A stretch of DNA of 64,000 nucleotides. It comes from Phytoactinopolyspora limicola (GTDB lineage: Bacteria > Actinomycetota > Actinomycetes > Jiangellales > Jiangellaceae). Under the pieces are notes generated by a model. That model was not told the DNA's origin and did not search any database. It saw only the letters and a program-made list of their open reading frames with translations. This document shows, piece after piece, positions 56,631 through 58,867 of the stretch (positions are counted from its first letter, which is position 1; every line of letters starts with the position of its first letter). Both the position numbers and the translations under genes were made by a program. Location of the stretch: positions 539,652 to 603,651 of the forward strand of contig NZ_JAAOEN010000001.1 of the NCBI RefSeq assembly GCF_011320225.1, written 5' to 3'.

Positions 56631-57551
56631 ATGAGCGGATCCGCCGACCAACACCCCGGGGGAGCTGGAGGTCCGGACGTCCCGGCCTGCTACCGGCACC
56701 CGCAGCGGGAGACGTATATTCGCTGCTCGCGGTGTAACCGGTTCATTTGTCCGGAGTGTATGACGGCCGCCCCGGTCGGGTTCCAATGCCCGGAGTGCAT
56801 CGCCGAGGGCAAGAAATCCGTGCGGGAGCCGCGCACGGCGCTCGGCGGACAGATCCGCGAGCACGGCGATGTCATCACCAAAACCCTCATCGGTATCAAT
56901 CTGGCTATCTGGCTGTTAGTGATGCTCATCCAGAATGGCCAGGTTTCCGACTCGATGCGGGCCTACGGTGCCAACTGGAACGAGTTGCCCGCGCGGTTCG
57001 CGTTGGTCATGGGGGTCGAGAACGACCCAGCCGGGGTGGGTATCGGTGTTGTCGAAGGCGAGTGGTATCGGCTGCTGACGGCGGCCTTCCTGCATCAGGA
57101 CTTCTGGCACATCGGTTTGAACATGTTCGCCCTGTGGATCCTGGGTAGTTCGCTCGAGCCGGTCCTCGGCCGGTGGCGGTTCATCAGCTTGTACCTGCTA
57201 TCGGCGCTGGGCGGCTCGGCGGTCTCGCTGCTGGGCGTGGGACACCCCTACTCGATGTCGTTGGGCGCCTCTGGCGCCGTCTTCGGGCTGTTGGGTGCGC
57301 TGCTCATCGTGATGCGCCGGTTCGAGCGGGACGTGAGCGCCGTGCTGGCGATTCTGGCGATCAACGTGGTGATCGGGTTCACCATGCCCCGGATCGACTG
57401 GCGGGCCCATTTGGGCGGGCTGATCGTTGGGGCGATCCTGGCCTTCGTCTTCGCCCACGCTCCGCGGCGGTATCGCACTCCACTGAGCGTCGTGGCGTGT
57501 GTGGTGGTGGCCGTAGGCATCGGTATCACGGTTGTGATGGCGTTGCCGTGA
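56631..57551 (+). CDS. Rhomboid-family serine protease with zinc-binding N-terminus
   Basis: 306 residues. The first 70 residues hold cysteines in a B-box-like pattern (CYRHPQRETYIRCSRCNRFICPECM...CPECIAEGKK). The rhomboid domain follows: TKTLIGINLAIWLLVMLI, HQDFWHIGLNMFALWILG, catalytic Ser 214 in LGASGAVFGLLG and His 260 in RIDWRAHLGGLIVGA. It cleaves membrane-anchored substrates within the bilayer. It is 14 bp from the ppiA stop, probably in the same operon, and is followed by a non-coding region with DnaA boxes. Confidence 0.95.
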   Translation: MSGSADQHPGGAGGPDVPACYRHPQRETYIRCSRCNRFICPECMTAAPVGFQCPECIAEGKKSVREPRTALGGQIREHGDVITKTLIGINLAIWLLVMLIQNGQVSDSMRAYGANWNELPARFALVMGVENDPAGVGIGVVEGEWYRLLTAAFLHQDFWHIGLNMFALWILGSSLEPVLGRWRFISLYLLSALGGSAVSLLGVGHPYSMSLGASGAVFGLLGALLIVMRRFERDVSAVLAILAINVVIGFTMPRIDWRAHLGGLIVGAILAFVFAHAPRRYRTPLSVVACVVVAVGIGITVVMALP

Positions 57552-57571
57552 ACGGCTTCACGGAGCGCGAG

Positions 57572-57763
57572 TTATCCACAGGACTTGTCCCCAGTGGGGA
57601 AAACTACACACGTGTAATCACAGCTGTGTAGGAGTCCTGTGGACAACTCGTCCGTGCAGGCCACAACGGTCTTTTCGCTTAACGAGAGGCCGTCTGAGGG
57701 CAACCGAGCCCACCGTGAAGAGTTATCCACAGCCCGCGAATTTGGGCCGTTGTGTGTGGATAT
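57572..57763. promoter_or_regulatory. Cluster of DnaA boxes
   Basis: Perfect boxes TTATCCACA at 57572-57580 and 57723-57731 and TTGTCCACA on the minus strand at 57638-57646; near matches at 57585-57593 (TTGTCCCCA) and 57755-57763 (minus strand, ATATCCACA). An inverted repeat CTACACA (57604-57610) / TGTGTAG (57625-57631) lies between them. All are in the 214-bp gap between the rhomboid gene and crgA. A classical AT-rich unwinding element is not apparent. Confidence 0.75.
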
Positions 57764-57765
57764 CT

Positions 57766-58020
57766 CTACTTCCATTGGGTCGCGCAGATGAAGCCACCGG
57801 TGATCAGACCCATGCCGATCACCAGGTTCCATCCGCCGAGAGCCTCCATGAACCCGATGTGCTCTCGCAGCAGGTAATACACGACGATCCAGACCAGACC
57901 CAGCAACAACAGGGTGAGCATGGTGGGCACCACCCAGCGGCCGGAGCTACCCGGGTCGCGTACCTCGCGTGATTCTTGCGCCATGGGGTCATCCTTCTTG
58001 CGGCGACGCGACTTCGGCAC
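57766..58020 (-). CDS. crgA: CrgA cell-division (septation) protein
   Basis: 84 residues from GTG 58020. Basic N-terminus (MPKSRRRKKDD after the start), then two membrane helices (WVVPTMLTLLLLGLVWIVVYYLL and LVIGMGLITGGFICATQWK), which is the CrgA layout. CrgA binds FtsZ, FtsQ and penicillin-binding proteins at the septum. The last residues lie next to the DnaA-box cluster. The in-frame start at 58095 would give a non-family N-terminus. Confidence 0.94.
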   Translation of the reverse strand: MPKSRRRKKDDPMAQESREVRDPGSSGRWVVPTMLTLLLLGLVWIVVYYLLREHIGFMEALGGWNLVIGMGLITGGFICATQWK

Positions 58021-58135
58021 GGTCGTTTCCTCTCGTGGTCGGTAATGGGCAGGCACTTCATGTTGGGAGACGTGCTCGGATAGCGTAGTAGTCACCAGGT
58101 TCGCCAGCTAAATCGTCCCGTGGGGGGTCCCCATC

Positions 58136-58867
58136 ATGTCCGAGCGTACGGCCGTCGGCCGCGGTTGGAAGACCGCGGCGCCGCTGGTGCTCGCACTGTG
58201 CGGGGCCTTGCTGGTCATCAGTGCGAAAACCTCCGGTGGTACCGACCTGCGGGGTGGCGACCTCCTGGAAATGACCGATCTCGTCCGGGCGGAGGAACGC
58301 CGGGTCCAGCAGTTGACCGTGCAGGCCGAGGAGATCCAGGTCGAAGTCGAGCGTTTGACGCAGAGCCGCGGAGACGACGAGACGAGGCGCCTCCAGGACG
58401 AGCTCGACGCTCTCCGCCCGCAGGCGAGTATGAGTCCGGTGCTGGGCCCGGGGCTGCAGGTCACGCTGCACGATGCCCCACGGACGGGGAACCGGCAGGA
58501 CCTCCTCGCCGGTGTCCACATCGAAGAGTTCATCATCCACCAGGAAGACCTCGAAGCCGTCATGAACGCGCTCTGGGCCGGTGGCGCCGAGGCCATGATG
58601 GTCATGGATCAACGTATCGGCGCGACGAGCACGGTCCGATGCGTCGGGCCGGTGCTTCAGCTGGAGGGACGGCAGTATGCGCCGCCGTACACCATCTCGG
58701 CGATCGGTGACCCAGACATGCTCCAGGCGGCGCTGGACGATTCGCAGGAGATCGCCTGGATCAAATCCTCGGCCGAGACGATCGGCCTGGGATACAACGT
58801 CGAGCCACTACAAGAGATCACCATGCCGGCCTACGAGGGGCCACGAGTGACGGGAACCAGATCATGA
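58136..58867 (+). CDS. DUF881 family membrane-anchored protein
   Basis: 243 residues with one N-terminal helix (TAAPLVLALCGALLVISAKTSGG), a coiled coil (residues 50-95: VRAEERRVQQLTVQAEEIQVEVERLTQSRGDDETRRLQDELDALR), and a DUF881 domain (PVLGPGLQVTLHDAPR...EEFIIHQEDLEAVMNALWAGGAEAMMVMDQRIGATSTVRCVGPVLQLEGRQYAPPYTISAIGD). Found next to crgA in most actinobacteria; function unknown, likely in the division machinery. ATGA overlap with trpG. Confidence 0.93.
   Translation: MSERTAVGRGWKTAAPLVLALCGALLVISAKTSGGTDLRGGDLLEMTDLVRAEERRVQQLTVQAEEIQVEVERLTQSRGDDETRRLQDELDALRPQASMSPVLGPGLQVTLHDAPRTGNRQDLLAGVHIEEFIIHQEDLEAVMNALWAGGAEAMMVMDQRIGATSTVRCVGPVLQLEGRQYAPPYTISAIGDPDMLQAALDDSQEIAWIKSSAETIGLGYNVEPLQEITMPAYEGPRVTGTRS

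Follow-up and report, generated by a model that had tools for sequence, protein, structure and literature searches.

A DnaA-box triad and abutting palindrome close to oriC in much of the class Actinomycetes: a candidate site of DnaA control

The cluster of DnaA boxes described here lies in Phytoactinopolyspora limicola, in the gap between a rhomboid family gene and the cell division gene crgA, within a window of 64,000 nucleotides (the whole stretch analysed; contig NZ_JAAOEN010000001.1, positions 539,652 to 603,651; window coordinates are used below). The gap is 214 bp long and non-coding, and the two genes converge on it with their 3' ends facing inward. The rhomboid family product also carries a B-box-like zinc ribbon that scores below the Pfam cut-off, and the 58095 end of crgA is provisional because the choice of start codon is not settled. 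An initial annotation of this DNA had described three perfect and two one-mismatch boxes together with a CTACACA/TGTGTAG inverted repeat. All five boxes and both repeat words were recovered where it had placed them, and to these we add a two-mismatch box (C), a larger 27-nt inverted repeat (57568-57594 / 57624-57650, 81% complementary) and the observation that both flanking genes end at the gap. The features of the locus are listed here.

56631..57551, + strand: rhomboid family gene (PF01694, E 9e-35); its stop lies 20 bp before box A
57570..57623, + strand: conserved core (type A element); scores 60.7 bits (E 5e-18) with model R2, of which it is one of the 17 building sequences
57572..57580, + strand: DnaA box A, perfect TTATCCACA; nine letters invariant across 20 family loci
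57585..57593, + strand: DnaA box B, one-mismatch TTGTCCCCA; oriented as box A, after a 4-bp gap
57595..57603, - strand: DnaA box C, two-mismatch TTTTCCCCA; inverted relative to box B after a 1-bp gap, third of the triad
57603..57620, no strand: palindrome ACTACACACGTGTAATCA, abutting box C; class consensus GAATnACACnnGTGTnATTC
57604-57610 and 57625-57631: inverted repeat words CTACACA and TGTGTAG
57617..57631, no strand: family-conserved extension including TGTGTAG, from the family alignment
57638..57646, - strand: DnaA box D, perfect TTGTCCACA; pairs with box A to close the outer inverted repeat, family-conserved
57723..57731, + strand: DnaA box E, perfect TTATCCACA; outside the class-wide core
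57755..57763, - strand: DnaA box F, one-mismatch ATATCCACA; outside the class-wide core
57766..58095, - strand: crgA, cell division protein (PF06781, E 4e-27); its stop codon lies 2 bp past box F

The conserved unit is an element of ~55 bp consisting of two boxes in the same direction separated by a 4-bp gap, one inverted box after a 1-bp gap, and an abutting palindrome. It occurs in two types. In type A, found in the host family and a few others, the consensus is TTATCCACA-4-TTATCCCCA-1-TGGGGAAAA followed by yTACACnnGTGTAATCACAG; in type B, found in most other element-bearing families, it is TTGTCCACA-1-TGTGGACAA-4-TGTGGATGA followed by ATnACACCGGTGTAATTC. Both share one design, with the same-direction pair 4 bp apart, the inverted box at 1 bp and the palindrome against the last box. 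We located crgA in 59 of 60 genomes (host counted) and compared the DNA 3' of these 59 genes. A template of box triad plus palindrome near the crgA stop scored 33 or more at 48 of the 59 loci, and the best of 354 mononucleotide shuffles reached 29. In 44 of these 48 loci the gaps measure exactly 4 and 1 (the template permitted only gaps of 3-5 and 1-2). L062, which is among the 48, has a poor first box. The 11 misses include L041, which was scored in the reversed orientation and whose element is matched by model R1 (see below), and L083, L084 and L085, for which candidate elements lie away from crgA (strong in G045, weak in G023 and G046). Within the host family, the alignment carries 1.3-2.0 bits per base over the element, compared with 0.4-0.8 just upstream and 0.6-1.3 just downstream. 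The boxes are thus conserved in relatives, and the suggestion of a functional DnaA-box cluster survives that check. An extra conserved patch (GCAGGtCa-like, 1.3 bits per base in the family alignment) lies just past box D at 57652-57661. Boxes E and F form a second inverted pair adjoining the crgA stop (57723-57763), with equivalents in some family members only. Membership of a repeat family was rejected: a BLAST search with a 231-bp stretch against the host's own genome returned no second copy, just the stretch's own inverted repeat and short matches.

The clustering exceeds chance in a genome-wide count. Perfect TTRTCCACA words number 73 in 6.59 Mb (38+35 on the two strands; reversed control 18+12). 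Three perfect boxes fell within 160 bp in 18 of 200,000 random placements, and the cluster in the gap is the sole such triple among the 73. When the 214-bp gap was shuffled 3,000 times (mononucleotide), no shuffle reached three perfect or five near boxes. Seven more same-direction pairs of perfect boxes with a recurring spacing of 31-34 bp are scattered over the genome (L044, L046, L047, L048, L051, L052, L053), and a palindrome-like TGACAAGTGTGTGAT (L192) stands ~105 bp from one of them (L052, G000:C34:368973-369134).

For a wider census, two sequence-only models were used at a threshold of E <= 1e-6: R1, representing type B and built from 22 sequences, and R2, representing type A and built from 17. 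Across 118 genomes of the host's class, R1 matches 51 and R2 matches 30 with zero overlap, giving 81 of 118, usually with a single strong copy in each genome. With the training genomes set aside, a hand count gives 52 matched genomes out of 89, four of the 52 being close relatives of training genomes. Of the 118 genomes, 112 have crgA itself. In a set of 27 named crgA loci, R1 or R2 matches 12 (hand count; E-values for 164 kb), namely one Phytoactinopolyspora, two Kineosporia, four Cellulomonas, Actinotalea, Canibacter and three metagenome-assembled genomes; ten give weaker matches only (E as high as 1e-3), a number of which lie 1-2 kb from crgA, and five have no R1 or R2 match, among them Streptomyces thermovulgaris and Pseudoscardovia suis. 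A phylum sample was scanned with R1 alone, and the outer limit that it sets therefore covers type B only: 4 of 149 genomes match, all near threshold, and at least 12 of the 149 belong to the host's class and are unmatched.

The element is placed consistently. The 3' end of crgA adjoins 78 of the 81 matches, with 75 lying 7-222 bp past the crgA match and three overlapping it by 1-2 bases; 69 of the 75 sit on the strand opposite crgA. The distance to dnaA is 9-133 kb in all 28 genomes for which it was worked out (20 strong and 8 weak matches; dnaA was located in 35). In the host, dnaA lies at G000:C1:525521-526966 and the element 70 kb beyond. In six genomes the element is not beside crgA (strong matches in G045, G063 and G080; weaker ones in G046, G107 and G129). 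In G045, G080 and, more weakly, G107 it stands between divergent gyrB-like and OmpR-type response-regulator genes, with dnaA ~31 kb and crgA 9-23 kb away. In G063 the element runs into the final codons of rhomboid at the 3' end of that gene, and crgA is distant. In G046 and G129 (weak R1 matches), box-like words together with palindromes stand a few bases from where rhomboid stops, at 44-45 kb from dnaA; crgA lies beyond dnaA, ~125 kb away. Conversely, L063, L064 and L069 have the element beside crgA with a different second neighbour, thiolase-like ends as read by eye. This separability from crgA and rhomboid, together with the steady proximity to dnaA, is more in keeping with a control site of the chromosome than with a component of either gene. 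The gyrB-like/response-regulator loci of the small-genome relatives are L145, L146 and L147, with a histidine kinase next in L145. Two tandem CrgA-domain matches, apparently in one reading frame, were seen in G046, G081, G095, G108 and G129.

The palindrome recurs beside a second gene. The word ATnACACnnGTGTnAT has 30 sites in the 118 genomes (reversed control 0), of which 11 are at the element, 12 within ~350 bp of a whiB signature and five elsewhere; of the remaining two, one is a whiB-site sequence cut by a contig end and one was not retrieved. Pfam confirmed three of four whiB reading frames and matched nothing in L179, and an NCBIfam search gave no type for the whiB proteins. The neighbours are CofD, CofH-like and nucleotidyltransferase genes, a context which suggests that the gene is presumably whiB2/whmD. 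The product of whiB2/whmD is a class II Wbl protein that works with WhiA in division (PMC6282962; here and below, papers cited by PMC number are drawn on in excerpt). We surveyed the DNA upstream of the best whiB homologue in 50 of 60 genomes against 500 shuffles. A conserved promoter, TTGACN-17/18-NNTAAT, is present in 45 of the 50 (0 of 500 shuffles), a GTGT(C/G/A)(A/G)TT word in 38 (3 of 500), and a score of at least 14 with the crgA-side palindrome template in 24 (0 of 500). A GTGTC(A/G)TT-like word often comes after the promoter (loci L194-L243). In the perfect-palindrome cases the palindrome overlaps the TAAT of the promoter, and the whiB-side sequence resembles a promoter-overlapping operator, clearly so in about half of the genomes. 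A looser palindrome search of the host's own genome gave four sites, none beside a whiB signature, and the window's palindrome falls outside that pattern.

Several candidates for a protein that might read this palindrome were considered. The binding word of WhiA is GACAC (PMC3781837), which is contained in several class copies (e.g. L064, L077, L089); the window reads CTACACAC/GTGTAATC instead. WhiA is a plausible candidate for the palindrome-binder. FtsR was rejected, as its published motif differs (PMC6683498). The BldO repeat TGxAATTxCA, which lies on the -10 region of Streptomyces whiB (PMC5485038), overlaps the whiB-side palindrome word.

The Rv0010c-Rv0011c site of Mycobacterium tuberculosis, where we take Rv0011c to be crgA, is the apparent mycobacterial counterpart of the element. 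DnaA pull-down sequencing in M. tuberculosis yielded five regions, this site among them, and chromatin immunoprecipitation sequencing in M. smegmatis found the homologues of the same five regions bound by DnaA (PMC7738170). Clinically recurrent changes fall in a short palindrome there, composed of two box-like words, and, when reconstructed, produced longer cells and behaviour like that of dnaA variants; the expression of the flanking genes was unchanged in dnaA mutants (PMC7738170). In the excerpted account, the discoverers term the site cryptic and propose titration or nucleotide exchange as possibilities (PMC7738170).

From the observed sequence, geometry, conservation, position, separability from crgA and recurrence of the palindrome beside whiB, we consider it very probable that the element is a DnaA-control site of some kind. 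Our fuller reading, to which we assign a probability of roughly 0.6, is of an oriC-proximal, cis-acting DnaA-control site in much of the class Actinomycetes, at which an ordered oligomer on the triad and a second protein on the palindrome would limit initiation. DnaA would bind the head-to-tail pair (4-bp gap) and the inverted box (1-bp gap) as an ordered oligomer, and the fixed gaps do argue for a defined DnaA oligomer; at the host element, DnaA probably docks in such a fixed arrangement. The protein that we infer to bind the abutting palindrome may also act at the promoter of the division-type whiB gene. Once oriC and the nearby element have been duplicated, the element would limit initiation by sequestering DnaA or altering its nucleotide state, in a manner that may be likened to datA of Escherichia coli and to clusters of Streptomyces coelicolor, and the palindrome-binder would tune this limit to the division programme. 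Being close to oriC, the element is replicated early after initiation, as would suit a brake, and the precedent is also negative, since the extra-oriC DnaA-box clusters near oriC in S. coelicolor repress untimely initiation (PMC5742627). On this analogy, we put a negative sign of action on initiation at even odds. The logic would be datA- or DARS-like (DARS, DnaA-reactivating sequence), perhaps with coupling to a division regulator, the element being a proven member of neither group.

A number of observations weigh against this reading. The whole 64-kb window holds 12 near-matches to the box compared with a shuffle mean of 12.2, so that it is the clustering alone that is unusual, and boxes B and C of the window are weak, with one and two mismatches. 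At E <= 1e-6, 37 of the 118 class genomes have no R1 or R2 match, including seven of seven in family f19, where the two loci inspected carry DnaA boxes without the palindrome. crgA itself belongs to an oriC-proximal gene block, and the closeness of the element to oriC is therefore partly inherited. Upstream of whiB, the palindrome template beats shuffles in just 24 of the 50 genomes. E. coli DnaA favours box pairs separated by 2-3 bp, with weaker binding once a further base pair is added (PMC11317965), and the 4-bp gap found here is wider than that optimum. The likeness to the mycobacterial site is one of description and not of alignment, the second neighbour being Rv0010c there and rhomboid here. 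Finally, the negative sign is argued by analogy, and the mycobacterial account as excerpted leaves both sign and mechanism undecided (PMC7738170).

The initial annotation had proposed that the cluster might be a DnaA-controlled promoter for crgA, or part of a split origin. crgA runs leftward and ends at 57766, placing the boxes 3' of the gene; because the gap is convergent and nothing in it lies upstream of crgA, there is no crgA promoter here. The six genomes that keep the element elsewhere speak against such a promoter, as does the unchanged flanking-gene expression in mycobacterial dnaA mutants (PMC7738170). What stands of this proposal is its broader part, DnaA regulation outside oriC, through the conservation of the element and the published DnaA binding at its apparent mycobacterial counterpart (PMC7738170). 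A DnaA-controlled promoter of another kind, in which the TGTAAT half of the palindrome serves as the -10 hexamer for an antisense or small RNA transcribed through crgA or rhomboid, is quite unlikely. It would account for the TTGACN-17/18-NNTAAT promoter upstream of whiB in 45 of 50 genomes, whose TAAT the perfect palindromes overlap, and for the element in G045, G080 and G107, which lies upstream of the response-regulator gene and points at it; against this, a consensus scan of 57400-58200 found no sigma-70-like site, neither flanking gene alters its expression in the mycobacterial mutants (PMC7738170), and the element is retained where crgA is gone. That the element is instead an RNA structure, a bidirectional terminator or a hairpin in the 3' untranslated region whose stem spells DnaA boxes by accident, seems very improbable. 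The single-sequence fold is very stable (z -7.4), 57400-58200 contains three terminator-like sites compared with 0.6 in shuffles, and convergent genes require terminators, but the RNAalifold covariation term is +0.22 with a double change in just one pair of 22, the words themselves are conserved at the sequence level, and boxes and palindrome persist without crgA or without either neighbour.

Participation in a split or second replication origin is hardly credible. The gap between dnaA and dnaN (L042:6992-7434, 443 bp), 70 kb away, has its own array of 11 boxes with up to two mismatches (1 perfect, 3 one-mismatch), and the local cumulative minimum of the GC (guanine and cytosine) skew falls just past dnaA in the 15 kb examined. 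With both its own box array and the local skew minimum there, the origin is most likely at dnaA-dnaN, and it is to this gap and not to the window cluster that the main array with a skew turn belongs. The rhomboid/crgA gap is richer in perfect boxes (three versus one), similar in box density at up to two mismatches (7 in 214 bp versus 11 in 443 bp) and oriC-proximal, all of which would suit an origin; it averages 56% GC, a gap-wide mean with no finer search for an unwinding element, and the separation of 9-133 kb far exceeds that of known bipartite origins, up to ~2 kb (PMC4285127). Less easily set aside, though still unlikely, is a DARS-like positive site, at which ADP-DnaA on the triad would shed ADP, leave as apo-DnaA, rebind ATP and promote initiation, with the palindrome-binder in the role that IHF and Fis have at DARS2. 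The orientation pattern, two boxes one way and one opposite, is that of the E. coli DARS cores (PMC5742627), fixed gaps favour a specific oligomer over mere titration, and nucleotide exchange is one of the possibilities named for the mycobacterial site (PMC7738170). The gaps of E. coli DARS1 and DARS2, however, are 3 and 5 bp, and those found here 4 and 1; the clusters of S. coelicolor hold back untimely initiation, and the E. coli DARS sites are far from oriC whereas the element is close (PMC5742627).

If the element is an oriC-proximal site that limits initiation, as we favour, it bears on the restraint of DnaA outside oriC in actinobacteria, a largely open field. Its fixed ~55-bp architecture across much of the class supplies exact bases to mutate, and its class-wide conservation offers a reason for the selection on the mycobacterial site. 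The palindrome shared with the whiB promoter hints at another factor, one through which replication and division could be linked. A bolder idea, possible although we hold it doubtful, is of a class-wide replication-division element, a DnaA triad fused to the operator of a regulator governing whiB2, through which DnaA activity and the septation programme would read each other at one site throughout Actinomycetes.

The element resembles the DnaA-box clusters of S. coelicolor, reportedly described by Smulczyk-Krawczyszyn in 2006 under the names H69, H24 and D78, in being an extra-oriC box cluster near oriC in an actinomycete. With the core of E. coli DARS1 and DARS2 it shares three boxes, one opposite to the other two, an intergenic location and fixed spacing; the spacing measured in E. 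coli DNA differs from that found here, and we have therefore not filed the element as a DARS despite the matching orientation pattern. The E. coli DARS sites use IHF and Fis (PMC5742627), and a putative palindrome-binder is proposed here. The likeness to E. coli datA is one of cluster type only: both are intergenic DnaA-box clusters, and datA, which controls DnaA activity (PMC5742627), has boxes 7, 2 and 3 grouped about an IHF site and promotes ATP hydrolysis. A search of the open-licence literature found no description of the class-wide triad or its palindrome, and the excerpted account of the Rv0010c-Rv0011c site mentions no class-wide triad, abutting GAATnACAC palindrome or recurrence beside whiB (PMC7738170). 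That site and the element nevertheless share their placement, on the 3' side of crgA and close to oriC, and both consist of a box cluster containing a two-box palindrome, which in the window is TTGTCCCCA-G-TGGGGAAAA at 57585-57603.
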